Shown: one piece after another, positions 9,423-59,362 of the stretch
Numbering within the stretch: the stretch's first letter is position 1
How the letters are laid out: every line of letters begins with the position of its first letter
Assembly (NCBI RefSeq): GCF_000265295.1
Contig: NC_018002.1
Span: forward strand, 744,001 to 808,000
Source: Sulfurospirillum barnesii SES-3
GTDB lineage: Bacteria; Campylobacterota; Campylobacteria; Campylobacterales; Sulfurospirillaceae
Length of the DNA stretch: 64,000 nt
Direction: 5' to 3'
Program-made: the position numbers and the translations under genes
The notes under the pieces: generated by a model
What the model saw: only the letters and a program-made list of their open reading frames with translations
Database searches by the model: none
What the model was told of the DNA's origin: nothing

Positions 9423-9426
9423 GTGA
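9325..9426 (+). CDS. Possible 33-residue leader or remnant ORF overlapping the nrfH start
   Basis: A small frame starting at TTG 9325 behind a strong GAGGAGG (9314-9320), encoding MVLQEDELKDNGLGVVAF... of 33 residues and ending in TGA 9424-9426, which overlaps the GTG start of nrfH. The arrangement would allow translational coupling. The product is charged, with no signal peptide, and I do not recognise it. A TTACATGTAA copy lies inside it. The TTG start makes it uncertain; it may be a remnant. Confidence 0.3.
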   Translation: MVLQEDELKDNGLGVVAFTCKDEKLTKRIKEEM

Positions 9427-9956: not shown

Positions 9957-9960
9957 CTCT

Positions 9961-10027
9961 GCCTCAACGAGGCAAGCTTTAGCGCCTCAGCGGCTAGCGT
10001 CGTTTCAAGAGCTTTGCTTTTGAAACG
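9961..10027 (+). promoter_or_regulatory. Hairpin cluster between nrfH and nrfA
   Basis: The 97-bp spacer holds GCCTC-AAC-GAGGC (9961-9973) and a 12-bp stem CGTTTCAAGAGC / GCTTTTGAAACG (10001-10027) with one G-U pair and a TTT loop. There is no T-tract after it, so it is more likely an mRNA processing or stability element that sets the NrfA:NrfH ratio than a terminator. Confidence 0.45.
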
Positions 10028-10053
10028 TGTAAGAATATAGAAAAGGAGAGAAA

Positions 10054-42212: not shown

Positions 42213-42226
42213 CTTCACTCTTTTTT
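42194..42226 (+). terminator. Intrinsic terminator overlapping the gene end
   Basis: GAGTGAAGC (42194-42202) pairs with GCTTCACTC (42212-42220), a perfect 9-bp stem, followed by TTTTTT (42221-42226). The left arm lies in the last codons of the YwqK-type gene. The structured repeat starts at its T-tract. Confidence 0.85.
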
Positions 42227-42347
42227 ATTAGGGTTCTTACAGAACTCTTAACACGCCTTTAAAGCAAAGCTCTAAAGGCTACGCTAACGCTGAGTTTTCC
42301 TCGGCGGAATGCCCACGCACCTTTGGTGCTTTTCCTTCTTGCAAAAT
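42221..42347 (+). repeat. Structured dispersed element, copy A
   Basis: About 127 bp, matching 59221-59337 at about 85% identity after allowing one 10-nt insertion (hand alignment). Three hairpins are seen: 42255-42279, 42297-42309 (stem TTCC/GGAA, loop TCGGC) and 42317-42329 (GCACC-TTT-GGTGC). It starts at the T-tract of an intrinsic terminator. No coding frame is evident. Confidence 0.8.
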
Positions 42348-42362
42348 GAGTTTTGCAAGAAG
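42335..42362. terminator. Hairpin between convergent genes
   Basis: CTTCTTGCAAAA-TGAG-TTTTGCAAGAAG, a perfect 12-bp stem just after the stop of the minus-strand gene. It overlaps the right end of the structured element and probably ends the minus-strand transcript. Confidence 0.65.
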
Positions 42363-42367
42363 TCTAG

Positions 42368-43117
42368 TTACTCTCCGCTTTCACACTCTCCATAAAATGC
42401 CATAATGCCATACTCAAGATTGAGGACGGTTTTAAAGCCCATGTGTTTTAAAATCCGTTGGCAATACGCACTTCGGCTTCCACTGTAGCAGTACAAAATA
42501 AGCGGTGTTTCTTCTTTGCCATTCAATTGGGAGAGGGCGTTGTGAAAGCTTGTTGTTGGAATAAGCACATCGGTTCCTTTGATACGGTTTCCTACCCACT
42601 CCATCCACTCTCTGGTATCGACCAGAAGAAAATTCACACTTCCTTGACCCCTAGCTTCCAATAACGCTTCGAGTTCATCGCCATCGAGTTGCTCTTTTTT
42701 CATTAAGAGCGCACACTCTTCTTGGCTTAAGCCTCGTGCGTGGGTGTGAGCGACTTCTTCAACATTTTCTTCTTGCGCAAGCTCTTTGGCATGTTCAGGG
42801 GTGCAAAAAATGGTACAGTGGCATTTTCCTTCGTTAGGAATCTCCTCTGTGAGTGCGGGGGTACAGGGGCAGAGACGATTTCCTGCTTTGATTTGTTCCT
42901 CTTTGGTTGCGCCAATGACCATAAAACAGGGGCAGTAGCGTTTGCCATAAATGAGTTTATTGCGGGTTAATCCTTGCTGAATAGACTCTTTAACATCATC
43001 TAAAGGCGTGTAGGCAAAGCCAAATTGTGCACACACTTTGTCGGTAAATGCTTCTGTTTTCTCTAATTCTGCCATAAATTCAGGTGAATTCATATCTATT
43101 TTAGTTATCAATGCCAT
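42368..43117 (-). CDS. Ferredoxin:thioredoxin reductase catalytic domain fused to rhodanese
   Basis: A 249-residue fusion. The N-terminal half (about 10-110) is the catalytic chain of ferredoxin:thioredoxin reductase: C62PC64, C83PC85 and C99HC101 supply the [4Fe-4S] ligands and redox-active disulfide; an extra Cys105 follows. The C-terminal half (about 160-245) is a rhodanese domain with a complete active-site loop C210YSGSRSA. The fusion suggests that electrons from ferredoxin are used in sulfur transfer or to reduce a persulfide or thioredoxin-like partner. The genes around it give no pathway. A palindromic terminator facing this gene lies in its leader region. Confidence 0.83.
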   Translation of the reverse strand: MALITKIDMNSPEFMAELEKTEAFTDKVCAQFGFAYTPLDDVKESIQQGLTRNKLIYGKRYCPCFMVIGATKEEQIKAGNRLCPCTPALTEEIPNEGKCHCTIFCTPEHAKELAQEENVEEVAHTHARGLSQEECALLMKKEQLDGDELEALLEARGQGSVNFLLVDTREWMEWVGNRIKGTDVLIPTTSFHNALSQLNGKEETPLILYCYSGSRSAYCQRILKHMGFKTVLNLEYGIMAFYGECESGE

Positions 43118-43304
43118 TCCTTTTAATTATTTTTTTATGGCGTATTATAGGAAGTTTGCATTGCAGAGAAATTAAAAAAAGGCTTTACATGTAAAGCCTT
43201 AAGAAAAGAGAAACAAGGTTCATTGAAAGGGTTACTTTTTTTTAATTTACTTTTATGGTATTGTTTTGCCCTCATGATACTACAGTTTTATGGAGAGTTA
43301 AAAT
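43118..43304. promoter_or_regulatory. Divergent promoter region with a 22-bp palindrome
   Basis: Between the minus-strand fusion gene and the plus-strand flavoprotein gene. It holds AAGGCTTTACATGTAAAGCC plus TT (43179-43200), a perfect 22-bp palindrome. Read on the minus strand the stem is followed by seven T, a proper intrinsic terminator lying in the leader of the fusion gene, so premature termination is possible if the promoter is upstream of it. Confidence 0.5.
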
Positions 43305-43904
43305 ATGCGACGTTTAGAATTTAGTTGTGAAGAGAAAACGCTTCGTGATGAGATACTCCAATCGTGTGAGTATGGTATTCTCTCTTTGAGCGTAGATAAT
43401 CTGCCTTATGGTGTGCCTCTTAATTTTGTCTGGCACAAGGAAGCCCTTTACTATCACGGAGCGGATGAAGGTCGAAAAGTAGAGCTCATCCATGCCAATG
43501 CTAACGCTTCCTTTAGCGTTGTTAAACCTTTGTCGCTCATCCCTTCTCACTTTAGTAACACACGTTCTGCCTGTCCTGCTACGCAATTTTTCCTTTCTCT
43601 TATTTTAGAGGGTAAAATTGAATGGGTACCCTGCATGGATGAAAAAGCAGAAGCGCTCAATGCACTGATGCAAAAGCTCCAACCTGAGGGTGGCTACGAT
43701 ATGATTGATGCCAAAAATGCAATGTATCAAAAAATGCTCTCAACGCTTGGTGTGTATAAACTCATGCCATCTGCCATTTCGTTCAAACTGAAAGCAGGGC
43801 AAAACCTCTCAGAAGAGCGTAAAAAAGTGTTGATAGAAAAGCTTCTTGAGCGAGGAACGAAGCTCGATGAGCTCACCATTAAGATGATAAAGCGTTACAT
43901 GTAA
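43305..43904 (+). CDS. Pyridoxamine 5'-phosphate oxidase-like flavin-binding protein
   Basis: A 199-residue protein of the NimA/PNPOx-like split-barrel family: YGILSLSVDNLPYGVPLNFVW and LYYHGADEGRKVELIHAN are typical, and ATQFFLSLILEGKIEWV follows. Members bind FMN or heme and include nitroimidazole reductases. The final codons TAC ATG TAA are a TTACATGTAA copy, so the palindrome supplies the stop codon. It is monocistronic. The substrate is unknown. Confidence 0.78.
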   Translation: MRRLEFSCEEKTLRDEILQSCEYGILSLSVDNLPYGVPLNFVWHKEALYYHGADEGRKVELIHANANASFSVVKPLSLIPSHFSNTRSACPATQFFLSLILEGKIEWVPCMDEKAEALNALMQKLQPEGGYDMIDAKNAMYQKMLSTLGVYKLMPSAISFKLKAGQNLSEERKKVLIEKLLERGTKLDELTIKMIKRYM

Positions 43905-43928
43905 AGATTTGTGAGCGTTGAAAAAAGC

Positions 43929-44585
43929 TCACGAATCTTTTAATCCGTCCAAACGATACCCCACTTCTTTAATGGTTTTAATAGCCCCCTCAGGCAGTTT
44001 GGAGCGTAAGCGTTTCACCAGTGCTCGAATATTAAAAATAGTGGTCTCTTCCCCTTGCCAAACGTATTCATCAATCTCGAAAAAAGGAACGGTTCGGGTG
44101 GTGTCTTTGATGAATAAATCTAAAAAAAGATACTCTTTTCTACCTAGAAAAATCTCCTCTTTTTGGGGATTGAAGAGGCGTTGGTTTTTAAAATCATAGA
44201 TATATCCTTGCCATAATTCAATGGTTGAACTCTCAACGTGACACAGTTTTTTAATTTTATGCACCAGCTCGTAAATAAAAAAAGGTTTTTTCAAGTAGTC
44301 ATTACAGCCTATCTCATAGGAGGTTTGAATCTTTTCCAAATCGTGATTGGAGCTGATGATAATGACAGGGACTTCTTTATTGAACAGACGAATGGACTCT
44401 AAAATGCTAATACCATCAAGGGAAGGGACGTTGATGTCGATGATAAAACAGTGGTATCCTTTGTTAATCTCTTCAAGTGCCCTCTCCCCATCGTTAAAGA
44501 CTCTCACATCATACCCGTGTTGGGTGAGTACATCGCTAATCACATCGCACAGCGATGCATTGTCTTCAAGGAGTAAAAGTTTCAT
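43929..44585 (-). CDS. OmpR-type response regulator
   Basis: A 218-residue regulator: receiver with phosphorylatable Asp in FIIDINVPS and Lys in YLKKPFF, then a winged-helix DNA-binding domain (LGRKEYLFLDLFIKDTTRTVPFFEIDEYVW). The start overlaps the stop of the upstream kinase gene by four bases, so they form a pair. The target genes are unknown. Confidence 0.9.
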   Translation of the reverse strand: MKLLLLEDNASLCDVISDVLTQHGYDVRVFNDGERALEEINKGYHCFIIDINVPSLDGISILESIRLFNKEVPVIIISSNHDLEKIQTSYEIGCNDYLKKPFFIYELVHKIKKLCHVESSTIELWQGYIYDFKNQRLFNPQKEEIFLGRKEYLFLDLFIKDTTRTVPFFEIDEYVWQGEETTIFNIRALVKRLRSKLPEGAIKTIKEVGYRLDGLKDS

Positions 44586-46432
44586 ACCACGTTTCCTAAG
44601 GTAATGCTAAAGCGTGCCCCCATTGGGGTATTGTCTGCTTTGATGGTTCCATTCATTTTATTTTCCAAAATAATTTTTGACATATAAAGACCAATACCAT
44701 GCCCATGCTCTTTAGTGGTGTAGTACGCATCAAAAATATAAGGCAGTTTTTCCTCAGGTATGCCTCCTGCGTTATCACTGATTTCGATAATAACAGTGTG
44801 CGCATGGTTGTAAACCACAATAGCAATTAAGCCTCGTTTGATTTTTTTGGCCTCTCTTTGATGCACAATTTGCTCTTTAGCGTTATTGACAATGTTGAGC
44901 AGGGTTTGCATAAACTCATTTTTATAGCCCAGCACGCTTAAATTGGTTGCATGGCTAATATCGATGGTAACATCAATATAGTTGTATTTAATCGTATGCG
45001 AAATAATGCCCATCATGGTCTCAATCGCCTCATTGACATCAAAAACCGTTTTGGTCGTGGAGGGCATAATAAAGGCTTGAAAACTGTTGATGGTATCGGT
45101 CATGTAGCGTACTTGTACCATAATGTCATGGATGTATTTATCGTTTTTTTCATCAAAGGCACTGCCTACACTAAAGGCGTGTTTTTGCACCAAAGCGGTG
45201 ATCTCAACGAGTGGATTTTTCCACTGATGGGCAATGGAGGAAAAAATATCCCCAATTTCAGCCAGTTTAGATTGTTGGATGATGAATTGTTGATGTTTGT
45301 TCTTTTGAAGTTCACTTTCACGGTACTTTTTCTCATCTTTAATACGCATGTAAATGTTGTGAATCAGCGCTAAAATAAGCAAAATGAGTAGGGGTAAAAT
45401 GAGTAAAATGGCATCCACATATTTTTTATGTTTGTCTAAAAAGCGCACAGGCGTGTTGACAAAACGCAAAGATTGTGTGAGCAAAAAAGGCTCTAGTTTG
45501 AATTTGTTGATTTTTTCATGGTTAAAAATGTATTCGTGGTTTTTATCGGTGATGATTTTATTGGAAGCGGTGGGATTGCGTAGAATGTCTCGTGCTAAAT
45601 TGCCCGTGGTTTCTCCTAATTTGTAGGTTAAAATGGACTTGCCACCCACAATACCTCGGGTGATAAAAAAAGAGTCCGTGGCAAAGACAGGAATTTCAAA
45701 CAGATCAATCGTATAAGCGATTTTATAATTTTTATAAAATTGGTCGTAATTGCCCCCGTAAAAAGGGATAAACAAAATGGTTTCATCGGGCGTAAAGATA
45801 GAAAACTTCTCTCTCATCTCTTGCAGGCTCAAATCCCCAATGTACTCAACCTCGCAGTTTAAACGCATGGCATCAAGGGTGTTTTTGATGGAAATATTGG
45901 TTTTATCTTCTGGATTTTTTTCGTTTAAAATATAGAGCTTTTTGAGGGAAGGGATCATGGTTAAAATAATATTAACATTATCCTCAATCGCTCTTTCTTT
46001 AATGACCCCTGAAATTTTATTGGCAAGTCCTTGTTTGAGCGCATCTTCGTAGGAAAAAAACTCCATACTGGAAAATAAAATACGCTCGTTCACAAAAAAG
46101 TCATAGTAGTGGTGCAGTAAAAAAGTATAGGCATGTTTGTCCACAGGAATAATCAAATCATAATGGGTATGTTTGAGTTTGATCTCTAAAAGATTGCGAA
46201 GCGTGGTGTAATCCTCTTTGCTTTTGGCTGCTTTCCCACTCATATAGATAACATCCGCATCCATGTCAGACTTTGCTAAAACATCTTTGATGCCTAGGAT
46301 AATATCATTGCTCCATTTAAAATTTTTAGGATACGAGTCAATAATGAGCACACGTTTTTCCTCCTGCGCCATCAGAGTATGACTAAAAAATAAGAAGAGA
46401 TAAAAAGCATAGAAAAAAGCGTAATGTCGCAT
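44582..46432 (-). CDS. Sensor histidine kinase with substrate-binding-protein-like sensor
   Basis: A membrane kinase of 616 residues. ATG 46432 has AAGG six bases upstream and begins directly at the signal sequence (RHYAFFYAFYLFLFFSHTLMAQ); the frame is open to 46459. The periplasmic part (about 25-320) resembles ABC-type substrate-binding proteins of the BMP/TrpX-like kind: KRVLIIDSYPKNFKWSNDIILGIKDVL, DLIIPVDKHAY, LFIPFYGGNY. A membrane helix (about 335-355), H-box (AHQWKNPLVEIT), N-box (NIVNNAKEQI) and G-box (GHGIGLYMSK) follow. It may sense a small ligand directly. It lies downstream of the amidohydrolase operon, separated by a hairpin. Confidence 0.85.
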   Translation of the reverse strand: MRHYAFFYAFYLFLFFSHTLMAQEEKRVLIIDSYPKNFKWSNDIILGIKDVLAKSDMDADVIYMSGKAAKSKEDYTTLRNLLEIKLKHTHYDLIIPVDKHAYTFLLHHYYDFFVNERILFSSMEFFSYEDALKQGLANKISGVIKERAIEDNVNIILTMIPSLKKLYILNEKNPEDKTNISIKNTLDAMRLNCEVEYIGDLSLQEMREKFSIFTPDETILFIPFYGGNYDQFYKNYKIAYTIDLFEIPVFATDSFFITRGIVGGKSILTYKLGETTGNLARDILRNPTASNKIITDKNHEYIFNHEKINKFKLEPFLLTQSLRFVNTPVRFLDKHKKYVDAILLILPLLILLILALIHNIYMRIKDEKKYRESELQKNKHQQFIIQQSKLAEIGDIFSSIAHQWKNPLVEITALVQKHAFSVGSAFDEKNDKYIHDIMVQVRYMTDTINSFQAFIMPSTTKTVFDVNEAIETMMGIISHTIKYNYIDVTIDISHATNLSVLGYKNEFMQTLLNIVNNAKEQIVHQREAKKIKRGLIAIVVYNHAHTVIIEISDNAGGIPEEKLPYIFDAYYTTKEHGHGIGLYMSKIILENKMNGTIKADNTPMGARFSITLGNVV

Positions 46433-46530
46433 CAAAAACCTTAAGAACATAATAAACAATATAACGCAATTTTAGTGACTCTGGGTTGAATCTTTGCATA
46501 AAAACAACCCGATCAAGCAGGTAAATTCTT

Positions 46531-46569
46531 TTTACATGTAAAGATATGCAGAGGAGAATGCCTCTGCAT
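46531..46569 (-). terminator. Terminator after the dcuC-amidohydrolase operon
   Basis: ATGCAGAGG-AGAATG-CCTCTGCAT (46546-46569), a perfect 9-bp stem next to the abgA-like stop, followed on the minus strand by TTTACATGTAAA (46531-46542). Confidence 0.55.
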
Positions 46570-46572
46570 GGT

Positions 46573-47886
46573 TTATTTGGCGCTAAGCATGTAGGCTGAG
46601 CGTAAAAAGAGATCAACGCCTGTCACCAAACAGCTCTCATCAAAGTCAAAACATTGGTTATGGTGTCCTGCTTCAAGTTTTGCACCTATCATCATATAAC
46701 CGCTTTGTCCCCCTTGATTTTGTACCGCTTGCATAAAATGTGCAAAGTCTTCGCATGCCCCAAAATCGCAGGTTTTCACGATGGCATCCTTTTCAATGAA
46801 CGGTGATTCAAGAGCCACTTTTTCATAAAGTTCGGTAATAAACGCTGAACTATCGCCACCACTGGTTCCTCCGACATCTTTTACACGGTAACCCACTGAG
46901 TGAATTTTTGAGACTCCCTCTAGGATGTTCATGCATTTTTCTTTCATAAAGGCATTGAGTTCTGTGGTCACGCCTCTGGTTTCACACGCCATAAAGGCAT
47001 TGGGTGCAATGACATTGCGTCCTTCACCTGCTCTTAAAACGCCCACATTCACACGGGTAATACCCTGACTGTGGCGGGTAATGCCATGCATTAAAAGGGC
47101 GGCTTCTGCGGCAGCTAAAAGCGCGTTTGCTCCCTCTTCCGGTGCGCCTGCTGCATGGGCAGATGTGCCATGAAACGTCACATCAAATTTGGAAGTGGCG
47201 AGGAAGTTATTAACTCCGCAAATAAGACCTCCGCTTTTTTTAGACTGAAAGCCTATGTGTGCGCCCAAAAGATAATCGACTCCCTTTAAAATGCCCGCTT
47301 TTTCCATAGCAACCGCACCTCTGGTTCCCTCCTCAGCCGTTTGGAAAATAAAGCGAAACACTCCTTTAAAATCCTCTTTGTGTTCGCTAATGAGTTTGGC
47401 GAGCCCTAAACCGATGGTAATGTGCCCATCATGCCCACATGTATGCGCAATCCCATCAATGTCCGCACGAAATCCCTCTTTAAACGGGCGGTGGGCTAAA
47501 TCTTTGCTCTCGGTAACATCCACGGCATCAATGTCAAAGCGAAATGCCACGCAAGGGCCAGGACGCCCTGTGTCAAGCTCTGCTACCACGCCTGTGAGCC
47601 CATCTTCCATGACATTTAAGAGAGCATACTCTTCAGGACAGAGCAGTTTTTTGGCACGAAGCAGTGCTTCATCCAGTGCTTCTTTTGAGCCTACTCCTTG
47701 CCTTGCATCTGCCACCATAATGTCTCGTCCCATCTTAAGTGTGTACCCATAACTTTTGAGTTTTTCAATAATTTTGACGGTGGTAAAAAAGGTAAACCAG
47801 CCCGTTTCAGGGTGTTGGTGAAAAAATCGACGTGTCTCTATCAGTTCTTTTTCTAAACTTTTTGCTCTTTGTGCAATGCTATCCAT
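46573..47886 (-). CDS. M20-family amidohydrolase (AbgA-like)
   Basis: A 437-residue zinc peptidase-fold hydrolase. Motifs: VAFRFDIDAVDV, AHTCGHDGHITIGLGLA (metal-binding), FQTAEEGTRGAVAMEKAG and FHGTSAHAAGAPEEGANALLAAA (dimerisation domain). It is closest in style to AbgA, the p-aminobenzoyl-glutamate hydrolase subunit, and to related N-acyl amino acid hydrolases. No AbgB is adjacent; its neighbour is a different M20 amidase. It is last in an operon with a DcuC-like carrier. The substrate is probably an acylated or carbamoylated amino acid. Confidence 0.82.
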   Translation of the reverse strand: MDSIAQRAKSLEKELIETRRFFHQHPETGWFTFFTTVKIIEKLKSYGYTLKMGRDIMVADARQGVGSKEALDEALLRAKKLLCPEEYALLNVMEDGLTGVVAELDTGRPGPCVAFRFDIDAVDVTESKDLAHRPFKEGFRADIDGIAHTCGHDGHITIGLGLAKLISEHKEDFKGVFRFIFQTAEEGTRGAVAMEKAGILKGVDYLLGAHIGFQSKKSGGLICGVNNFLATSKFDVTFHGTSAHAAGAPEEGANALLAAAEAALLMHGITRHSQGITRVNVGVLRAGEGRNVIAPNAFMACETRGVTTELNAFMKEKCMNILEGVSKIHSVGYRVKDVGGTSGGDSSAFITELYEKVALESPFIEKDAIVKTCDFGACEDFAHFMQAVQNQGGQSGYMMIGAKLEAGHHNQCFDFDESCLVTGVDLFLRSAYMLSAK

Positions 47887-47889
47887 TTT

Positions 47890-49131
47890 TTATCCTTCGT
47901 TTGCTAAGGTAATGAGGGTTTTAGTAATCACTTCTGTAGCGTACATAACATCATCCATATTCACTTCTTCAGCGATATTGTGGCTAATGCCCTCTTTGCA
48001 CGGCACAAAGACCATCCCTGTATGCGTTGAAACATAAGGCATATGCATCGCATCGTGTCCTGCTCCGCTTGGAAGTTTTAGGGTTGGAATGTGAAGTTTT
48101 TTTGCTTCATTTTCAAGGGTTTCTATGATTTTTTTATCGAGGCTTACAGGTATGTCATGGGTGAGCACTTTGAGGGTATAAATCAGACCCCTATCGTGCG
48201 TAATTTTTTCGATACCTTTTTCAATCAATAAGGCTGCTTTTTCAAGATTTGCATGGTCAATATCTCGAATATCAATACCCAAACTCACACTGCCTGGAAT
48301 GACATTCAGCACACCAGGAGTTGCATTGGCAAAGCCTACCGTTGCTACGGTGGTTTCACCCGCTTTTTCTTTGGCAACATTTTCTACATGTAAAATAATT
48401 TCCGCCGCACACGCAAGTGCGTCAGCGCGCATGTTCATGGGTGTTGCCCCTGAGTGGTCAGCTCTGCCTTGCAGGGTTAAGGCGTAGCGAATGGGGGCAG
48501 CAATGCCTGTGACAATGCCCACAGGAATATTTTTGTTCTCCAACACAGGGCCTTGTTCTATGTGCAATTCTAAGTAGGCATAAAAGGTATCTGGAGGAAG
48601 TGTGGCATTGTCCATCGTCTCAACCGCACATCCAAACTCCTTAGCTGCTTCATAAAGGCTGATTCCCTCTTTGTCTTTCAGGTTTTCAAGCGCCTCTGTG
48701 GAGAGTTTGCCTGCCATGACTTTGCTTCCCACGGTTGCCATGTTAAAACGGCTAGACTCTTCGCAGGAGAAAATAATGAGCTCAAACGGACGTTTATGAG
48801 AAATTTTCTGCTCTTTAATGGCACGAATGGCTTCAAGACCGCACATCACCCCTAGCGTGCCATCAAAACAGCCACCCAAAGGAACGCTATCTAAGTGAGA
48901 GCCAATGGCAACGGCAGGCAGGGGAAGTTCCCCCTCAATACGCCCAAAAATATTGCCAATGGCATCTTCACGAATAGTCATACCCACGGCTTGCATGAGT
49001 GTTTTGACATACTCACGTGCGTGGGCTTCCTCTTTGGAGAAAGCCAAACGGGTAATGCCTCCTTGAGGGAGGGCTCCAAAACGGCTAATGGTCTTTATCT
49101 CCTCACTGAGACGTGTTGCATTTATCATCAC
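47890..49131 (-). CDS. M20 hydantoinase/carbamoylase-family amidase
   Basis: A 413-residue zinc hydrolase of the AllC/HyuC/AmaB group: AIGSHLDSVPLGGCFDGTLGVMCGLEAI with the metal ligands, FSCEESSRFNMATVGSKVMAG, LELHIEQGPVLENKNIPVGIVTGIAAPIRYAL, GRADHSGATPM and LPSGAGHDAMHM. Enzymes of the group remove a carbamoyl or ureido group from N-carbamoyl amino acids, allantoate or ureidoglycine. It is three bases upstream of the AbgA-like gene and seven downstream of dcuC, so the three act together. The exact substrate cannot be told. Confidence 0.86.
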   Translation of the reverse strand: MMINATRLSEEIKTISRFGALPQGGITRLAFSKEEAHAREYVKTLMQAVGMTIREDAIGNIFGRIEGELPLPAVAIGSHLDSVPLGGCFDGTLGVMCGLEAIRAIKEQKISHKRPFELIIFSCEESSRFNMATVGSKVMAGKLSTEALENLKDKEGISLYEAAKEFGCAVETMDNATLPPDTFYAYLELHIEQGPVLENKNIPVGIVTGIAAPIRYALTLQGRADHSGATPMNMRADALACAAEIILHVENVAKEKAGETTVATVGFANATPGVLNVIPGSVSLGIDIRDIDHANLEKAALLIEKGIEKITHDRGLIYTLKVLTHDIPVSLDKKIIETLENEAKKLHIPTLKLPSGAGHDAMHMPYVSTHTGMVFVPCKEGISHNIAEEVNMDDVMYATEVITKTLITLANEG

Positions 49132-49137
49132 TACTCC

Positions 49138-50406: not shown

Positions 50407-50539
50407 TTTGAACGCTCCTTAAAGGGTAAGTATCCTAGAAGTTTAAACTTTTAAGGAGATTTCTACATAATGTAATTTCTTAAAAAAATATTAACATATC
50501 TGAATTTTCTGAGGAACCTTTACATGTAAACTCAAGATG

Positions 50540-52528
50540 CTATAAGTGTTTAGGTTTTCCAAAATAATACCCTTGCGAATAATCAATTCCCATATCACGT
50601 ACCATTTTGTAGATAATTTCATTTTCGACATACTCCGCAACGGTTGAGAGTTTTTGTTTTTTGGCAAATAAAATGATTGTTTCGACAATATTCTGGTTCA
50701 CTTCATTGGTGTGGATGTTCTTGATTAAGCTACCATCAATTTTTAAAATATCAGGTTCAAAAAAGAGCAAGCGCTCAAAATTGGAATAGCCTGTTCCAAA
50801 GTCATCAATCGCAATTTTAACCCCTTGTGCTTTCACATCCTGGATAAAGCGTTTAATAGCGTTTATATCTTTCATATTTTCACTCTCTAAAATCTCAAAA
50901 ATAAGCCGAGGAGCGTGCTTTTTGTAGATTTGCAAAAGGGAGTGAATATGCTCAAGAATGCTCTCTTGCTCAATATCTTGCATGGAAAGATTAATAGAAA
51001 TGGAAGCATTAGGAACTTTATGCAGTGCTTCAAAAGAGTTGTTGAGCACAATTTTAGTGATTTTATTGGAGTAGCGTCCTTTTTTGGCAACATCTAAAAA
51101 ACAAGCAGGGGAGAGAAGTTTTCCCTCTTCATTGACGAGGCGCACAAGCGATTCGTATTTTTCGATTTCTTGGGTTTGGTTGTTAATAATAGGCTGAAAA
51201 TAGGAGATAATTTTTTGGTTATCAATAGCCGTTTTAATCATATAGAGCGTTTCAATATTGCGCAGAGCATTGTCGTATTCGATGTCATTGAGCCCATCGG
51301 CATAGACAATGGGCTTTTTGCTAGCCATTGCATGGTCAATACCAATCTTAGCATCTTCAAAAATCTTAAAAACCCCATAGGTGTAACTGCACACCACGGA
51401 GATGTCATATTCAATGCCATCGATTCGAACAACATACTCTTTGACATTGGCAAGAAAGCGCTCTAGGGTCTCATACAGTTCTTCTCTGGTGGCTTGACAT
51501 GTGCGTCTATCTATCACAAAAGCATAGAGCCCATTTTCCAAAAAATAGACTTTTTGAAAGCCACACATGGAAGGCATAAGGTATAAGAGGGCTTTGTAAA
51601 AAGCGCTTTCTATTTTTTCCACACTGCTTTTGTTGTAAAATTTTTCCAAAATCGCATAATCTTCAATTTGTACCAGAATTAAGACGGAGAGTTTATTGGC
51701 TTCTAAAAAATCAAAGAGCTGTTTTTTATCGCTCATAATCGCAGTAACATCATGGCGCAAGGAAATATACTCTTCGATGTCACCGTGTGCATTTAAAATC
51801 GGCTGAATGGTTGTTTTCACATAATAACTTTCACCATTCTTGTTGCGATTTTTAACAATGCCCTGCCATGTTTTTTTCTCCTCTTTAATGGTATGCCACA
51901 ACTCTTCAAAGGTGCTTTTAGGCACATCAGGGTGACGAATAATATTATGATTTTTGCCAAGCAATTCTTCTTCGCTGTAGCCAGAAATACGGCAAAATTG
52001 CTCATTAACATAGGTGATGCGCCCTTGCGGGTCACTTTTGGAGATAATGGCACTAAGGTTGGTGATGTTTTCATATTGTTGGAGCAAGAGGCTTTTTTTT
52101 GCGTGTTCTTTTTTTAGACTCATTTTCTCAAGGAGTTTTCCCAGAGTCGCACCAAATTGGCTAAGGCTTAAAGGTTTAAAGAGGTAGCCATCCACCCCAC
52201 AATCAACCGTTTTAGGAAAATGGTGCGCTTCATGCAATTCAGATAGGACAATAATAGCTATATCTGGATTGTGCTTGCGAATCTTCTCAATAAGCTCCAC
52301 ACCATGCATAAACGGAAGATTTAAGGTGGTAATAATTAAGTCAATGGTGCTGTGGTGGCGTAGGTAAAGACTGAGTCCCTCCTTGCCATCTTGCGCCATT
52401 ATTACATGGTCAAAAAATTTTGAAAAGAGGTGTGTGGCACTCTCTTTAGCATGTTCATCATGCTCAATGTATAAAAGACGCATCTCCTTGCTCAATTGCC
52501 TCAGTGTTGCAATGTGTGCTCTTTCCAC
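50540..52528 (-). CDS. Receiver-PAS-GGDEF-EAL protein
   Basis: A 662-residue c-di-GMP-type signalling protein. A response-regulator receiver is at about 15-130 with Asp in LIITTLNLP, a degenerate version in which the acidic residue is replaced by Thr. A PAS domain follows (about 150-265, ITYVNEQFCRISGYSEEELLGKNHNIIRHPD), then a degenerate GGDEF region without a GGDEF motif, and an EAL domain (about 420-660) with ESLVRL, NLSMQD, EILES, DDFGTGYSNF, KIDGS and QGYYFGKP. The last looks able to break down c-di-GMP. GTG 52528 with AGGAG seven bases before it is preferred; ATG 52483 is the alternative. The start lies within the end of psd. Confidence 0.87.
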   Translation of the reverse strand: MERAHIATLRQLSKEMRLLYIEHDEHAKESATHLFSKFFDHVIMAQDGKEGLSLYLRHHSTIDLIITTLNLPFMHGVELIEKIRKHNPDIAIIVLSELHEAHHFPKTVDCGVDGYLFKPLSLSQFGATLGKLLEKMSLKKEHAKKSLLLQQYENITNLSAIISKSDPQGRITYVNEQFCRISGYSEEELLGKNHNIIRHPDVPKSTFEELWHTIKEEKKTWQGIVKNRNKNGESYYVKTTIQPILNAHGDIEEYISLRHDVTAIMSDKKQLFDFLEANKLSVLILVQIEDYAILEKFYNKSSVEKIESAFYKALLYLMPSMCGFQKVYFLENGLYAFVIDRRTCQATREELYETLERFLANVKEYVVRIDGIEYDISVVCSYTYGVFKIFEDAKIGIDHAMASKKPIVYADGLNDIEYDNALRNIETLYMIKTAIDNQKIISYFQPIINNQTQEIEKYESLVRLVNEEGKLLSPACFLDVAKKGRYSNKITKIVLNNSFEALHKVPNASISINLSMQDIEQESILEHIHSLLQIYKKHAPRLIFEILESENMKDINAIKRFIQDVKAQGVKIAIDDFGTGYSNFERLLFFEPDILKIDGSLIKNIHTNEVNQNIVETIILFAKKQKLSTVAEYVENEIIYKMVRDMGIDYSQGYYFGKPKHL

Positions 52529-53351
52529 GTAATGCTCCTAATGTTTGTCCAAATTTAACGTGCGAAACGCTTTCTAGTTCAAGGGAAATGGATTCTTTTT
52601 CAAAGAGCATGACGATGGTTGAGCCCATCTCAAACATGCCTAACTCTTCACCTTTTTTAAGCCAAAGATTGTCATAGCTATAGCACTGTTGAAGGTTTCC
52701 TTTGGCATTGGTTTGGATGGTTTTATCAAAGTTAAATGCCATTTTACCAACATTTAATGCCCCTACAAAAACCATGTAAAAAAGTTGATTTTCTTTGGTG
52801 TAGCACTCTAAAACGACACGCTCATTTTCCACAAAAAGTCCTTCAATTTTTCGAAGCCACTTAAAATTGACAGGGTAGAGTTTACCTGGAATATGCACTG
52901 CCTTAGCCACACGCATTTCAAGAGGAACGTGGTAACGATGGTAATCACGAGGCGAGAGGTAAAAGTTTACAAAATCACCACCCTCAAGGCGGTCTTTCTC
53001 TTTTTTAGCAATATAATCACCTAAAAGTTCACGAACACTGTAGGTAAAGCCTTTAATTTGAAGGGCAAGGGAATGTTCAATTTTTCCATACGCACTGATA
53101 AGGCTATCGCAAGGAGAAATCAGTGTTTGTTCATTCATACTAAAAAGGCGTTTGGTTTTAAAGGGACGTGTAAAAAGTTTGTTCAAACTTTTGTAGTGGT
53201 CTGCCTCTTCAAATTCACCCAAATCCACACGCATCATGGAAACATAACTTTTGTTAATAATGGTTTGCACAGAAGTTGGGAACTCTTTTGACGCAAAAAC
53301 GCCAAAAAGGCGAGACGCAATAGAACTTTTAAATTTTGGATAACGTTGCAT
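52464..53351 (-). CDS. psd: Phosphatidylserine decarboxylase proenzyme
   Basis: Makes phosphatidylethanolamine. The 295-residue proenzyme has G243-S244-T245, the self-cleavage site that creates the pyruvoyl group at Ser, and FVNFYLSPRDYHRYHVP, which holds the conserved His and Asp residues. It is of the longer, non-E. coli type. The 3' end overlaps the signalling gene at 52528 by 65 bp, so translation of the two may be coupled. Confidence 0.96.
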   Translation of the reverse strand: MQRYPKFKSSIASRLFGVFASKEFPTSVQTIINKSYVSMMRVDLGEFEEADHYKSLNKLFTRPFKTKRLFSMNEQTLISPCDSLISAYGKIEHSLALQIKGFTYSVRELLGDYIAKKEKDRLEGGDFVNFYLSPRDYHRYHVPLEMRVAKAVHIPGKLYPVNFKWLRKIEGLFVENERVVLECYTKENQLFYMVFVGALNVGKMAFNFDKTIQTNAKGNLQQCYSYDNLWLKKGEELGMFEMGSTIVMLFEKESISLELESVSHVKFGQTLGALRGKSTHCNTEAIEQGDASFIH

Positions 53352-53440
53352 AGCACTCTTTCATGTATGAAGTAGATTTAAGAAATGATTATACCAAATG
53401 AATGTAAGGTTTTTATAAAAAAATGTGATATATTTTCACC

Positions 53441-54832
53441 ATGAAAACACATACACCTCACCCATTTAATCATCTGATTCACCATCCATCCATGTTAGAA
53501 ACACTAGAACGTCTAGGCTATCAGCGTATGACACCCATTCAAGAAGCCTCATTGCCTCTTGCTTTAGAGGGACGTGACGTTGTTGCACAAGCCAAAACAG
53601 GCAGTGGAAAGACCGCTGCATTTGGACTACCTTTGCTTTTGAGCTTACATGTAAACTCCATGCGCATCCAATCAGTGGTGCTGTGTCCCACACGAGAGCT
53701 TGCCGAACAAGTCAGCAATGAATTACGACGTTTGGCGCAATTTACCCATAATATTAAAATTGTCACGCTCTGTGGCGGGACTCGTTTTGTGCCTCAGTGC
53801 ATCAACCTCGAGCATGGTGCGCACATCGTAGTAGGAACTCCAGGGCGCATTTTGCAACATTTGCAAGAAAAAACCATTGACTTTTCGCATATCAAAACAC
53901 TCGTTCTTGATGAAGCCGATCGTATGCTTGACATGGGCTTTTACGAAGACATCGAGAAGATTATCGCCAAAATGCCAAGTAAGCGTCAAACCTTGCTCTT
54001 CTCCGCTACTTTTCCCAAAGAGATTGAGCGTATGTGCAAGGAAGTGCAAAATGACGCTTTACATGTAAGCATCGAAGAAGAAGCGCACACGTCACCCAAT
54101 ATCACACAAGTCTGCTATAAGGTAGAGGCAAGTGAAAAAGAAAAAGCACTCAAAGGCGTTTTACTGCAAAGCGATGCCAAGTCGGTCATCATCTTTTGCA
54201 AAACCAAAATAGGCGTGGCGGAACTTCAAGGCTATCTGTTAGATGAAGGCTTTGACGCACTCTCTTTGCATGGCGATTTAGAGCAAATCGACCGTGACGA
54301 ACACCTCTTACTTTTTGCCAACGGAAGTGCGCAAATCTTAGTTGCTACAGACCTTGCCTCTCGTGGGCTGGACGTCAAAGATGTCGAGATGGTCATCAAC
54401 TACGAACTCCCTCAAACGATGGAAATCTACACCCATCGCATTGGTCGAACAGGACGCATGGACAAAGAAGGCATGGCAGTAAGTTTTGTCACACCACGAG
54501 AAGAGAGCTTTTTTGAAGAGCTTACAGAGGCGAATTTTGCCTTTACATGTAAAAGCATTGGCGACTTAAATCCAACCCAAACAAAACCCAAAAAAGCCCT
54601 CTATATCACGCTTTGCATTGACGCAGGCAAAAAGCACAAAATGCGTGCTGGTGACATCTTAGGAACGCTGACCAAAGACTTAGGTTTGGAAGCAAATGTT
54701 ATCGGTAAAATCGACATCTTAGAAAAATTCTCCTACGTCGCCATAGCCAGAGAATACGCTGATAAAGCGTTTGATGGGCTGTGTGCTACGACCATTAAAA
54801 ATCGACGGTTTAAGATATGGAAGTTGGGGTAA
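53441..54832 (+). CDS. dbpA: DEAD-box RNA helicase DbpA
   Basis: An ATP-dependent RNA helicase of 463 residues. Q-motif (about 20-35), Walker A AKTGSGKT, LDEADRML, SAT in LFSATF and HRIGRTGR are all present. The C-terminal 75 residues (KKALYITLCIDAGKKHKMRAGDILG...) match the DbpA RNA-binding domain that recognises hairpin 92 of 23S rRNA, so it acts in large-subunit assembly. Three TTACATGTAA copies lie within it (53645, 54059, 54543). Confidence 0.93.
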   Translation: MKTHTPHPFNHLIHHPSMLETLERLGYQRMTPIQEASLPLALEGRDVVAQAKTGSGKTAAFGLPLLLSLHVNSMRIQSVVLCPTRELAEQVSNELRRLAQFTHNIKIVTLCGGTRFVPQCINLEHGAHIVVGTPGRILQHLQEKTIDFSHIKTLVLDEADRMLDMGFYEDIEKIIAKMPSKRQTLLFSATFPKEIERMCKEVQNDALHVSIEEEAHTSPNITQVCYKVEASEKEKALKGVLLQSDAKSVIIFCKTKIGVAELQGYLLDEGFDALSLHGDLEQIDRDEHLLLFANGSAQILVATDLASRGLDVKDVEMVINYELPQTMEIYTHRIGRTGRMDKEGMAVSFVTPREESFFEELTEANFAFTCKSIGDLNPTQTKPKKALYITLCIDAGKKHKMRAGDILGTLTKDLGLEANVIGKIDILEKFSYVAIAREYADKAFDGLCATTIKNRRFKIWKLG

Positions 54833-54837
54833 AAAGC

Positions 54838-55602
54838 ATGGAAGAGAAAGAAATAAAAGACAATAAAATCTTAAACTCAAGATCAAATCAAAATAAGCCT
54901 TCTTTGCAAACAATTTTAACGATTGTTGGGCTTGGCTTAACAATCATTGCATATATTATGGGGAAAGCTTATTATGATACCTATATGTACAGTTTTGGAT
55001 TGAGTAGTGACTTCTTCCCTATATCCACGCAAGATATTTATTTTTATTCATATGGTGCTGTTTTATACGGATTTTCAGCTCTCATGGAGATTTTAAAGCG
55101 TAATCTATTGTCTATAATAATAAGTGCAACGTTTGTAATAGGGATAATGGTTTTTCTTGCATTACGCCCGAAAAATGAAAAATCTATATTGGTAAAATTT
55201 CCATTTTTAGAAAAATTTTTTTCATCTACAAAAATACAATTTTTTATACAATTATTGACGACGACATTTGCGGGAGTTTATCTTTTTACATTGTTTATAT
55301 ATGTTCTAACTTTGGTTTTAATGTTTGCATTATATCTGTATGTTGGACCACAGTCAGTAGGTGAAAAAATGGCAGCTAAAAAGATAAATGAATATCGAGA
55401 ACACGGTTGTTACGTACCTGAAAATAGCCAAGCAAATACTTGCATCCAAATTTTGAATAAAGATAATCAAGAAGTAGCAAAAGGCGTATTAATAGCTTAC
55501 GATAATAACAAAATTGCTTTTTTAAATGATAAAGGTAGCCAAATTATCACATTTCCAACGGATGGAAAAATTATAGTGGATGTAAATATAACAAAGAAAT
55601 AA
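54838..55602 (+). CDS. Membrane protein of unknown function
   Basis: A 254-residue protein, ATG 54838 with GGGG eight bases upstream, six bases after the dbpA stop; ATG 54817 inside dbpA is possible. It has a polar N-terminus, three hydrophobic segments (about residues 24-41, 88-106 and 133-170) and a soluble C-terminal domain (about 180-254) ending VDVNITKK. I recognise no family. Its base use is markedly more AT-rich than dbpA before it, as in acquired or fast-evolving genes. Confidence 0.7.
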   Translation: MEEKEIKDNKILNSRSNQNKPSLQTILTIVGLGLTIIAYIMGKAYYDTYMYSFGLSSDFFPISTQDIYFYSYGAVLYGFSALMEILKRNLLSIIISATFVIGIMVFLALRPKNEKSILVKFPFLEKFFSSTKIQFFIQLLTTTFAGVYLFTLFIYVLTLVLMFALYLYVGPQSVGEKMAAKKINEYREHGCYVPENSQANTCIQILNKDNQEVAKGVLIAYDNNKIAFLNDKGSQIITFPTDGKIIVDVNITKK

Positions 55603-55603
55603 G

Positions 55604-56188
55604 ATGCCACACATTCTTTTAGCCACCGACATTTTTGGTTACACAAAAGCCATAGAAACACTCAAGCACCGTTTTGAGTCTTTGGGTGAGGTGATACATA
55701 TTCTTGATCCTTACGATGCAAAGCAGATGAATTTTCACGATGAAGAGCAAGCCTATAAGTCATTTAACCAATTGTGTGGACTTGAAAGCTATGCCAAAGC
55801 GTGCATGCAAGCTCTGGATGCATGTTCAAACGAAGAGGTGGTAATAATTGGTTTTAGCATGGGTGCATCGGCGTTTTGGAAAGCGCTTGATGGATGTGAA
55901 AACGCCAAAATAAAACACTTTTTTGGGTTTTACTCCTCTCAGATTCGTCATTGCTTAGATGCTAACGTGCTTGTGCCGTGCACACTGATATTTCCACAAT
56001 ATGAAAAACACTTTGACGTAGATGAGGTGATAACAAAGCTTGTAAAACATGCGAACATCACCTGTTTGAAAACAGCGTATTTACATGGCTTTATGAATCC
56101 GTTGTCTGCACATTATGATGCCCAAGGGTATGCTACGTATTATCAGTTTTTAGAAAATATTTTCCATACTATGCGTCAGGAAAGCTAA
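55604..56188 (+). CDS. Alpha/beta-hydrolase-like protein
   Basis: A 194-residue protein. VVIIGFSMGASAFWKAL at about 82-98 holds the nucleophile elbow GFSMG, and HGFMNPLS near 165 gives a possible catalytic His, as in the dienelactone hydrolase group. The start DIFGYTKAIETLKHRFESLG also fits that family. It lies one base after the preceding gene and directly before the AraC regulator. Substrate unknown. Confidence 0.7.
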   Translation: MPHILLATDIFGYTKAIETLKHRFESLGEVIHILDPYDAKQMNFHDEEQAYKSFNQLCGLESYAKACMQALDACSNEEVVIIGFSMGASAFWKALDGCENAKIKHFFGFYSSQIRHCLDANVLVPCTLIFPQYEKHFDVDEVITKLVKHANITCLKTAYLHGFMNPLSAHYDAQGYATYYQFLENIFHTMRQES

Positions 56189-56956
56189 ATGATCTATTAT
56201 TGTAAAACGGCATATGCTGATTTAGAATTTATTGTTTTAAAAGAGGCGATTTTTTCATATCCCAGACACAATCATATCTCCAGTTATACCATAGGTATTG
56301 TTCAAAATGGCGCACTTTCTCTTTGTTCTAATGGTGAAAAAAAGGTGTATAAAAAAGATATGTCTTTTACCATCAATCCTTATGATGTCCATGAAATAGA
56401 AAGTTTAGAAGTGTATGATATGATAGTCTTAAGTCTAAAAAGGAATTTTTTAAAATCTTATGAACTGCTTGAAGCACAAGTGATTGTTGGTCGGTATGCA
56501 CGTATTTTAGAGGAGATGGAATACTTAGAAGAGAGCCATGGTGCGCTTTTTGATGATATATTGCGTGGGGTGTATGCGCATTGTGATTCTATGCATGAAA
56601 AACACCGCACGCTTGATAGAATTAAAACCTTTTTAGAAGAGTACCCAGAAGTTCAGATTGATGGTGAACATTTATCACGGTATAGTGCTCTGAGCAAATA
56701 CCATTTTATACGCAAGTTTGATGAAAATGTCGGGATGACACCGCATAAATTTCACATTCAAAATCGTGTACGAAAAGCGAAAGGTTTGATAGAAAACAGT
56801 ACGTCGATGACCGATGTGGGTTTGAGTGCAGGATTTTATGACCAAAGCCACTTTATAAGGCATTTTAAAAAACTTTTTCAAATTTCTCCCTCGTCTTATA
56901 AAGCAGCGTGTCTTGATTTGGATGCGTTAGCAAAGAGCGGGAAAAAACTTCGCTAA
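56189..56956 (+). CDS. AraC-family transcriptional regulator
   Basis: A 255-residue regulator: an N-terminal cupin-like ligand domain (FSYPRHNHISSYTIGIVQNGAL, FTINPYDVHEIES) and a C-terminal double helix-turn-helix (ALSKYHFIRKFDENVGMTPHKFHIQNRVRKAK... STSMTDVGLSAGFYDQSHFIRHFKKLFQISPSSYK). The start directly follows the hydrolase gene. Its 3' end overlaps the convergent cupin gene by 30 bp. Confidence 0.92.
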   Translation: MIYYCKTAYADLEFIVLKEAIFSYPRHNHISSYTIGIVQNGALSLCSNGEKKVYKKDMSFTINPYDVHEIESLEVYDMIVLSLKRNFLKSYELLEAQVIVGRYARILEEMEYLEESHGALFDDILRGVYAHCDSMHEKHRTLDRIKTFLEEYPEVQIDGEHLSRYSALSKYHFIRKFDENVGMTPHKFHIQNRVRKAKGLIENSTSMTDVGLSAGFYDQSHFIRHFKKLFQISPSSYKAACLDLDALAKSGKKLR

Positions 56957-57322
56957 AAGATATAAACCCTTTTCATCTGCATGGATGGAGTGTTCTGTCT
57001 TTTTAGGAAAAATGCTCATGGTTCCTGTTGCATAAGAAAATGTAGAACCCTCTTTGATACAGTACCCACTGCCACCGATGACTTCATGTGTCTCTAACTC
57101 ATTTTCATGGACATGCGTTTGGATGGCTTTATGCGGAGCGATGCGTACTAGATGAAAGCTAAACGCCCCTTCGCTTTGAGCAGAAGTGACAAGATGCTTT
57201 AATGCCACACCTTCAAATTTTGGGTGATTCCACCAGTCAAGTTTTCCTAGATGAACACTTTTCCCCTCTACTAAAAGCGTACCGTGTTCAAATGCTTCAA
57301 AAAATTGTGTGTCTGTTTTCAT
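56927..57322 (-). CDS. Cupin-domain protein
   Basis: A 131-residue single cupin: PHKAIQTHVHENELETHEVIGGSGYCIKEGS holds the first metal-binding motif with His, Glu and His, and MSIFPKKTEHSIHADEKGL the second. It may bind a metal. Function unknown. It is convergent with the AraC regulator, with which it overlaps. Confidence 0.8.
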   Translation of the reverse strand: MKTDTQFFEAFEHGTLLVEGKSVHLGKLDWWNHPKFEGVALKHLVTSAQSEGAFSFHLVRIAPHKAIQTHVHENELETHEVIGGSGYCIKEGSTFSYATGTMSIFPKKTEHSIHADEKGLYLLAKFFPALC

Positions 57323-57394
57323 GATGAACTCCTATTGATTTTCAAGGAGTATTATAAAAAAGAGTCTATTTTTTGGATTGTATAAAATTGCGTT

Positions 57395-58006
57395 TTAAGC
57401 TCTCACCACCTTCAACCAATTATAAATCGTAGCCTTTGAGACATTTAAAACCGAGCAGATATACCCTACGACATTGCGAATGGCGAAGATGCCTTCACGT
57501 TCTAAAAAAATGACCAACTCTTTTTTATCGTCGCTTGAAAGACCCGATAGGGCGATGTTTTTAGCGCTTAAGTATTTTTCTATCGTCTCATCGGTGTGTT
57601 CTCTCCAACTTTGTGAAAAAAGTACCGCAGGTTTAGGCTCAGAGTCGTTTACATGTAAAAAGCCTTTGAGCGACTCGAAGAGCGTTTCGATGGGCTCTGT
57701 GTTGTAGTTGATGCAGATCATTCCAATGGGCTTTTCCTCCACGTCTCGCACGATGATGCTCACCGCTTTGAGGCGTTTGCCCTCACTGCTGGTTTTATCA
57801 TACGGTCCAACCCAGTTCTCTTTGATGCTGTTGAAATCTTTGAGCTCACTCAGCATCACATCACCGACGCGGCGTTTGGAGAAGGCATTGACAATGTGAA
57901 TGAGTTTTTTCGCTTCCAAATCGTGCATGACGACTTCGACATTGGGGTAAAAGAGTTTGGCTATGGCGTCGCACAAGGCGATGTAGGGTTTGAGTACTTT
58001 TTTCAT
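57395..58006 (-). CDS. YheO-like PAS/helix-turn-helix regulator
   Basis: A 203-residue regulator with an N-terminal YheO-type PAS domain (YIALCDAIAKLFYPNVEVVMHDLEAKKLIHIVN; IGMICINYN) and a C-terminal helix-turn-helix (REGIFAIRNVVGYICSVLNVSKATIYNWLK), as in DauR. It is divergent from the dehydrogenase gene at 58087, which is a likely target. TTTACATGTAAA occurs at 57648. Confidence 0.87.
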   Translation of the reverse strand: MKKVLKPYIALCDAIAKLFYPNVEVVMHDLEAKKLIHIVNAFSKRRVGDVMLSELKDFNSIKENWVGPYDKTSSEGKRLKAVSIIVRDVEEKPIGMICINYNTEPIETLFESLKGFLHVNDSEPKPAVLFSQSWREHTDETIEKYLSAKNIALSGLSSDDKKELVIFLEREGIFAIRNVVGYICSVLNVSKATIYNWLKVVRA

Positions 58007-58086
58007 GGCAAAATTATAACACGAATTTAAAGATAATTTGTCTAATTTAGACTATAATTCTAAAAAATAATGCAAAGGAGTCAAGA

Positions 58087-58938
58087 ATGGCAATCGGTTT
58101 TATAGGATTAGGCAATTTAGGAACAGCTATCGCAAAGCGTTTAGCAAGCATGGGTGAAGAGGTTTTGGTATGGAATCGAACAAAGGCGAAAGCGGAAGCC
58201 AAAGGGTTTGTGTGTGAAAGCTCACCCAAAGCGCTCTTGGAGAAGTGCGACACAGTGCTCATGTGTCTGTTTGACTCGGATGGCGTACGCAATGTTTTAA
58301 TGATGGAGAATGGGCTTTTAAGTGCAAACCTCAAAGGTAAAACCATCATCGACCTTACGACCAACCATTTCACCGATGTCATAGAGTTTCACACCATGGT
58401 GGAAGCCAAAGGCGGTGACTACCTTGAATCACCCGTACTTGGAAGTGTTGTACCTGCGAGCAAAGGCGAACTCACCGCTGTTTGTGCAGGACGCCAGAGC
58501 GTTTTTCTTACATGTAAGCCTCTATTAGAGAAGTTTGCCTCCACGATTTTTCATTTGAAAGAAGCTGGATTTGCGGCAAAGATGAAGCTTATCAATAACC
58601 TATGCCTTGGCTCATTCATGGCGACGATTGCGGAGTGTACGGCTCTTGGTGAAGCGTGCGGGATTGATAAAAAAGAGCTTTTAGAGATTTTAGGAGCAGG
58701 GGGCGGAAAGTCACTCGTGCTTGCGGCTAAAACGCAAAAGCTCATCGATGAAGACTTTAGTCCGCATTTTAGCACGGCGGCTATCACTAAAGATTTGCAT
58801 TGTCTGCAAGACTTGGCGTACAGTTTAAATCGTCCGCTTTACACCGCAAGTGTCACTAAAGAGCTTTTCTCCAAAATGAAAATGATGGGAAAGGGCGATG
58901 AGGACTTTAGTGCTATCTACCAGCTTTTCAAAGCGTAA
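58087..58938 (+). CDS. Beta-hydroxyacid dehydrogenase family NAD(P)-dependent enzyme
   Basis: A 283-residue dehydrogenase: an N-terminal Rossmann domain with GFIGLGNLGTAIAKRLASMG, the substrate segment SPVLGSVVPASKGELT and the catalytic Lys in MKLINNLCLG. It belongs with 3-hydroxyisobutyrate, tartronate semialdehyde and glyoxylate/succinic semialdehyde reductases (GLYR type). The substrate is not clear. AAAGGAG precedes ATG 58087. It is divergent from the YheO-like regulator. Confidence 0.87.
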   Translation: MAIGFIGLGNLGTAIAKRLASMGEEVLVWNRTKAKAEAKGFVCESSPKALLEKCDTVLMCLFDSDGVRNVLMMENGLLSANLKGKTIIDLTTNHFTDVIEFHTMVEAKGGDYLESPVLGSVVPASKGELTAVCAGRQSVFLTCKPLLEKFASTIFHLKEAGFAAKMKLINNLCLGSFMATIAECTALGEACGIDKKELLEILGAGGGKSLVLAAKTQKLIDEDFSPHFSTAAITKDLHCLQDLAYSLNRPLYTASVTKELFSKMKMMGKGDEDFSAIYQLFKA

Positions 58939-58946
58939 CCCTTCAA

Positions 58947-58970
58947 GGGCGTTTTACATGTAAAGCGCCC
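58947..58970. terminator. Terminator-like stem containing the palindrome
   Basis: GGGCG-T-TTTACATGTAAA-G-CGCCC: 24 nt that pair throughout with one U-G, just after the dehydrogenase gene. No T-tract follows on either strand. Confidence 0.55.
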
Positions 58971-59036
58971 ACCCTTTACAATTGGGAAAAACCTGTGCTA
59001 TACTTTGCGTTACAAATTTTTCAAAAGGAGAACAAG

Positions 59037-59138
59037 ATGGAAACTTTTATCACCCATCAAACCATACACCAACCTCAGAGCATTGCGCAATTTTCTAACG
59101 CATCACTCCTCGTCGTCCTCCTAAAAAAGCTCCGATAA
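59037..59138 (+). CDS. Leader peptide for leuA with Leu-Leu-Val-Val-Leu-Leu
   Basis: A 33-residue frame, ATG 59037 with AAAAGGAG six bases upstream, ending at TAA 59136. Near its end the codons CTC CTC GTC GTC CTC CTA read Leu-Leu-Val-Val-Leu-Leu, then Lys-Lys-Leu-Arg. Runs of branched-chain codons in a short frame before leuA are the hallmark of transcription attenuation: ribosome stalling when charged tRNA-Leu or tRNA-Val is short. A terminator-like structure follows at 59175. Confidence 0.75.
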   Translation: METFITHQTIHQPQSIAQFSNASLLVVLLKKLR

Positions 59139-59174
59139 CTTTTAACCCCTTTTATTTTTCACTGTTCATTGTTT

Positions 59175-59227
59175 AAATTGGCTTTTTAGCCCTGAGGATA
59201 CCTCTACCTAATTAGCACAATTTTTTA
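59175..59227 (+). terminator. Candidate leu attenuator
   Basis: AAATTGGCT (59175-59183) can pair with AGC-A-CAATTT (59214-59223, one bulged A), enclosing a small GAGG-ATA-CCTC hairpin (59194-59204); T residues run to 59226. It lies 36 bases after the leader peptide stop. I could not identify the alternative antiterminator fold. Confidence 0.4.
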
Positions 59228-59337
59228 TTAGAGTTCTTTAACACGCTTTTAAAGCAAAGCTTTAAAAACTACGTTAACACTGTGTTCTCTTCGGCAGAGT
59301 GCCCACGCACCCTTGGTGCTTTGAGCTCTTGCAAAAT
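59221..59337 (+). repeat. Structured dispersed element, copy B
   Basis: About 117 bp, related to copy A at 42221-42347. Hairpins: 59245-59269, 59287-59299 (stem CTCT/AGAG, loop TCGGC) and 59307-59319 (GCACC-CTT-GGTGC). Two paired positions in the second stem and one in the first are changed on both sides relative to copy A. It starts at the T-tract of the attenuator-like structure and ends 25 bp before leuA. Confidence 0.8.
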
Positions 59338-59362
59338 TTTATTGTAAAACAAGGATATTTCT

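Follow-up and report, generated by a model that had tools for sequence, protein, structure and literature searches.

The bcr1 repeat of Bacillus cereus combines mobility with a conserved RNA fold, and in this combination it resembles, going by its general description alone, the element that we describe here. The GTAG superfamily of REPs comprises grouped, intergenic units of 20-40 bp, in which GTAG accompanies a variable hairpin with compensatory changes in its stem, and in which GT pairing has also been noted (PMC3733652). The repeat studied in this work, from Sulfurospirillum barnesii SES-3, parallels these REPs in having a GTAG before a variable hairpin with compensatory stem changes and in its grouped, intergenic copies; however, its core is of ~80 nt, places two pseudoknots upstream of the GTAG, has a low copy number and is not linked to a Y1 transposase. 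A second affinity is with the MITEs of the IS5 family (DDE_Tnp_4): like them, the repeat is short, non-coding, intergenic and polymorphic, and it has its terminal repeats and a 3-bp AWT target duplication in common with a 916-bp IS. In contrast to them, it carries a conserved pseudoknotted core, which other genera have without such ends. The literature that we searched, with partial coverage, contained no account of such a repeat from Sulfurospirillum. We hold, with a probability of about 0.8, that both sites described below are insertions of a non-autonomous IS5-family MITE carrying an older core that folds on the minus strand.

The window analysed is a stretch of 64,000 nucleotides (NC_018002.1, positions 744,001 to 808,000), in which an initial annotation had recognised a structured element of ~120 bp at two places. 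Both copies lie where it had put them and align well across the core, and a 20-base core probe matches at these two alone, against a chance expectation of 0. Copy 1 extends to 42365 rather than 42347, and a divergent third core copy at 9960-10031 had escaped it. Comparison with an empty site in the genome G015 (L226), together with the end consensus of 79 copies, delimits copy 1 as a full-length 136-bp MITE at 42230-42365, with the folded strand being the minus strand. It ends in AGGGTTCTTACA and TGCAAGAAGTCT and is flanked on the left by the target duplication ATT (42227-42229), as read from the letters, the empty site and the end consensus, and on the right by AGT (42366-42368), with one mismatch to ATT, as read from the letters and the end consensus. 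Its structured core (42250-42330, minus strand) matches our covariance model R1, which is written in plus orientation, with 104.4 bits (E 3e-25), and presents on the minus strand, in this order, hairpin 3 (HP3), pseudoknot 1 with P2, pseudoknot 2 with a mini-hairpin, the GTAG and hairpin 1 (HP1). No ORF of at least 60 aa is listed inside 42230-42365, and 136 bp are too short for a transposase. On one side of copy 1 lies a MORN-repeat gene; on the other, a convergent gene encoding FeThRed_B and rhodanese domains ends, its stop codon being two bases away. The corresponding position in G015 and in other species has no such copy.

Copy 2, which sequence comparison identifies as the same MITE, occupies the leuA leader at 59230-59350 (minus strand; end approximate). 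It has lost ~10 bp of the left hairpin and its right end has decayed near 59350; comparison with the end consensus recognises the left target duplication ATT (59227-59229) and finds the right one unrecognisable. Its core (59240-59320, minus strand) matches R1 with 98.8 bits (E 8.6e-24). The element lies between leuA and a leucine-rich leader peptide (59037-59138), likely the leu leader peptide METFITHQTIHQPQSIAQFSNASLLVVLLKKLR, which is conserved upstream of leuA in relatives. In these relatives a CTTG...CAAG hairpin with a T-run follows the leader peptide and precedes leuA, whereas S. barnesii has lost this hairpin at copy 2; several relatives that keep the hairpin and T-run lack copy 2. A change in leuA attenuation is conceivable in S. 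barnesii. In three other leuA leaders (L150, L155 and L144), a core without IS5 ends stands just before leuA in the opposite orientation, apparently having reached this leader independently. The third copy in the window (9960-10031, folded strand plus) matches R1 on the minus strand with 39.6 bits (E 1.5e-8) and has GAGGCAAGCTTTAGYGCC where the second module usually stands, a type of core also seen in L046, L055/L178, L205 and L218. It lies, with its folded strand in sense, between genes that we read from their ORFs as NrfH-like (9423-9956) and NrfA-like (10054-11601).

The unit of the family within the genus is the 136-bp MITE, most copies of which are bounded by inverted AGASTTCTTGCA. Exactly 136 bp separate the outer limits of 41 of the 79 end-bounded copies, and identical 3-bp flanks are present in 49 of them (30 ATT, 11 AAT), compared with 21 in shuffles (maximum 30). 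When the joined flanks of 25 copies were searched against five close genomes, many matches ran unbroken across the junction, revealing empty sites for more than 10 insertions in G000 (S. barnesii), G003, G005, G015 and G022. Some of these sites had drifted; several others are clean (L190, L186 and L003 among them), with a net gain of 139 bp, i.e., the 136-bp element plus 3 bp of an extra ATT or AAT. These empty sites set the duplication as AWT, in place of the 3-bp TAW or 1-bp duplications that we had also considered. Thus, given the clean empty sites in relatives and the ends and duplication shared with an IS5-family IS, comparison of filled and empty sites establishes the mobility of the element at the level of genome sequences.

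The IS in question emerged from an end scan of the sister genome G008, which found five inverted pairs 916 bp apart. All five units have the inverted ends AGACATCTTGCAAAACTCA with ATT or AAT on both sides (5/5), and their two overlapping ORFs match HTH_Tnp_4, DDE_Tnp_4 and the NCBIfam IS5 transposases. Against the 19-bp IS end, the right ends of the MITE match at up to 18 positions and the left ends mostly at 14-15. From the shared ends and shared target, we infer that the MITE moves in trans by an IS5-type transposase: the enzyme of the 916-bp IS would cut and paste it by these ends, and insertion into an AWT target would leave the 3-bp duplication. The annotation's suggestion of a small mobile element is thereby upheld, with empty sites, a target duplication and a matching autonomous IS to its credit. 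The terminal repeats, the target duplication, the presence-absence polymorphism and the lack of coding capacity are all those of an IS5-family MITE; the exception is the transposase itself, which is found in 6 of 24 same-genus genomes, with 0 in a search of the S. barnesii genome. Since it was not detected there, the S. barnesii copies may now be immobile or be moved by another enzyme. In a 265-bp unit (L408, G019:C1:1124092-1124356), which has similar ends (AGACTTCTTGCATAA) and is flanked by AAT, no core is visible by eye, indicating that the core is cargo and not needed in every such element.

A search for further copies, which the initial annotation had suggested, located ~16 in the S. barnesii genome (2,510,109 bp), copies at varied places in all 23 sampled same-genus genomes, and the core in 79 of 397 genomes of the phylum from several families. 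The core is intergenic in 160 of 172 cases, numbers at most tens of copies per genome, and occurs without IS5 ends in other families of Campylobacterota. In several genera (L282, L253, L011, L268 and L287), core copies are strung head to tail at a spacing of ~86 to 107 bp. As the core spreads more widely than the MITE, and without these ends in other genera, it is probably the older of the two; we propose that a dispersed structured repeat, scattered through other genera of Campylobacterota, would have been trapped between two IS5 ends and then amplified in Sulfurospirillum. By the same token, the lack of these ends in other genera means that IS5 does not account for the dispersal of the core there.

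The fold of this core is supported by covariation. The hairpin 2 change from TTCC/GGAA to CTCT/AGAG around the loop TCGGC, from which it was first argued that the folded form matters, is present as one of four pairs, all of which covary in the larger alignment, and the signal grows there. In the mostly new alignment A4, which was aligned to the model and so favours the modelled hairpins and not the pseudoknots, 91.6% of cells are paired, once the pseudoknot pairs are included, compared with 69.5% in shuffles, and 657 double changes stand against 202, with 25 of 28 pairs showing double changes; 0 of 500 shuffles reach either the paired share or the double-change count, and the signal collapses when columns are slid by one to three. 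A mutual-information pair search without imposed structure, on an alignment of 92 distinct copies fitted to R1 (which has the hairpins and other pairs where the pseudoknots lie), recovered the three hairpins and both pseudoknots. Pairs 35-40 and 37-47 are among those recovered, and pair 54-64 is GC in 73 copies and AT in 19, with no exceptions.

The folded strand, taken as plus in the initial annotation, is probably the minus strand, because G-U exceeds A-C when 178 distinct copies are read on it (266 versus 43). The asymmetry is strong, but 111 of the 266 G-U come from two HP1 columns, and with copies that share ancestry the counts do not stand for 266 independent events. On the minus strand pseudoknot 1 has loops of 1 and 2 nt, as in the classic H-type, and the plus-strand order fits less easily; single-sequence folding of copy 1 is no better on the minus strand (z -2.7 on minus, -4.1 on plus). 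Early pairs of a plus-strand fold, such as column 50 with 66, were replaced by pseudoknot pairs in the larger alignment. The predicted minus-strand fold would thus begin with hairpin 3, continue with a short H-type pseudoknot, in which RGC pairs with the GCY inside a GCYGA loop, and a second knot, in which AAC pairs with the GUU inside a GUUA loop, and close with GUAG and hairpin 1; the GTAG and HP1 are present in the folded-strand consensus. Highly conserved unpaired bases occupy model positions 31, 32, 33, 36, 42, 52 and 53 on the same strand. The proposal of a structured-RNA family is borne out to the extent that the fold is specific to one strand and covaries strongly: it is conserved on a single strand, in whose letters RNA and single-stranded DNA are inseparable. 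Rfam 15 gives nothing above the gathering score in the window. On the plus strand, a short sequence similar to CUAACRCUG recalls the twister ribozyme. We rejected this candidate, as covariation places the fold on the opposite strand and Rfam returned only a weak twister match elsewhere (E 8.8), with none at the core.

What the core does, as distinct from what carries it, admits several readings. As a minus-strand transcript it could be a functional RNA, such as a ribozyme or a ligand- or protein-binding RNA, useful to the host or to the element, with the MITE as one of several carriers; the two short pseudoknots, the highly conserved unpaired bases on one strand and the asymmetry of G-U over A-C speak for this, as does one orthologous pair (L028/L034) with three double changes and none breaking a pair, a pattern that could reflect selection or conversion. 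However, in the closest orthologous pairs the core differs mostly by single pair-breaking changes at about the rate of the flanks, which looks like decay after insertion. With orthologues thus behaving like decaying insertions, it may be chiefly the still-spreading copies that keep the fold conserved. In none of 8 loci, moreover, does Rfam yield a relative at the core, even with E raised to 10, and the core shows no orientation bias to same-strand neighbours, with 25 sense and 19 antisense in the genus and 35 and 23 elsewhere (p 0.45 and 0.15; genes called by a simple ORF rule). We therefore regard a functional RNA as conceivable and somewhat unlikely. The bolder version, that two consecutive H-type pseudoknots and the GUAG-hairpin define a new class of structured RNA with its own activity (e.g., self-cleavage or protein binding), spread within Campylobacterota by several unrelated carriers including the IS5 MITE, we consider rather doubtful. 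The same counts, which total 60 sense and 42 antisense when the two groups are pooled, make a cis-acting riboswitch or leader controlling the next gene most improbable and lead us to reject it, and with it the earlier idea of read-through leaders: copy 2 does lie in the leuA leader, and in one genus (f17 g18) many copies stand just upstream of the ribosome-binding site, but the neighbouring genes are unrelated, and most leuA leaders of the genus lack copy 2, whose folded strand is antisense to leuA.

Two further readings concern how the element moves and where it lands. The core could be a REP-type element that a tyrosine (Y1, RAYT) transposase moves in the form of folded single-stranded DNA, the REP unit being the GTAG with hairpin 1. 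The GTAG tag followed by a variable hairpin, the tandem arrays, the intergenic sites and the strand-specific fold fit the GTAG superfamily (PMC3733652), and most same-genus genomes have a Y1_Tnp gene. Nevertheless, the surroundings of 60 Y1_Tnp loci, out to ~1.5 kb, contain no core, Y1_Tnp is missing from several genomes with many copies, among them single-contig genomes of genus g53, the unit measures ~80 bp rather than 20-40, and insertion in Sulfurospirillum obeys IS5 rules; this lack of linkage, along with the genomes that lack the enzyme, led us to set the reading aside as improbable. Specific targeting of transcription terminators, as originally suspected, drew on the T-runs that precede both window copies. 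At copy 1 a plausible terminator stem does precede the T-tract, which is host DNA also present in the close relative's empty site; at copy 2 the T-run does not directly follow a strong stem and no terminator-like site was found. As what the copies have in common is an AWT target, and many insertion sites lack a terminator, with left flanks such as CTCTAAT or TATTGTTCAAT, we accord such targeting next to no credence.

The preferred reading, an IS5-family MITE with an older folded core, thus describes a short non-coding transposon that carries, in place of a gene, a conserved pseudoknotted strand, with this cargo appearing older than its carrier. If the fold is active, transposition would have spread a new RNA or single-stranded DNA motif, whose effect on neighbouring genes could be tested directly by comparing the sites that are filled with those that are empty among close species.

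No match was found in plasmid or phage collections. A pattern scan of named genomes returned, among the matches listed, almost only Campylobacterota, with the genera Sulfurospirillum, Sulfurimonas, Sulfurovum, Sulfuricurvum and Hydrogenimonas and one Arcobacter MAG. Pattern matches in Flavobacteriales (L244) and Microbacterium (L285) have no model match and are due to chance, whereas L262 (labelled Proteobacteria) and L296 (Malikia) do match the model; the latter two records may be mislabelled or contaminated bins. Among five pattern matches in viral contigs, the model matches one alone, L359 (IMGVR_UViG_3300032212_000702), a contig labelled viral in which the core scores 70.4 bits.
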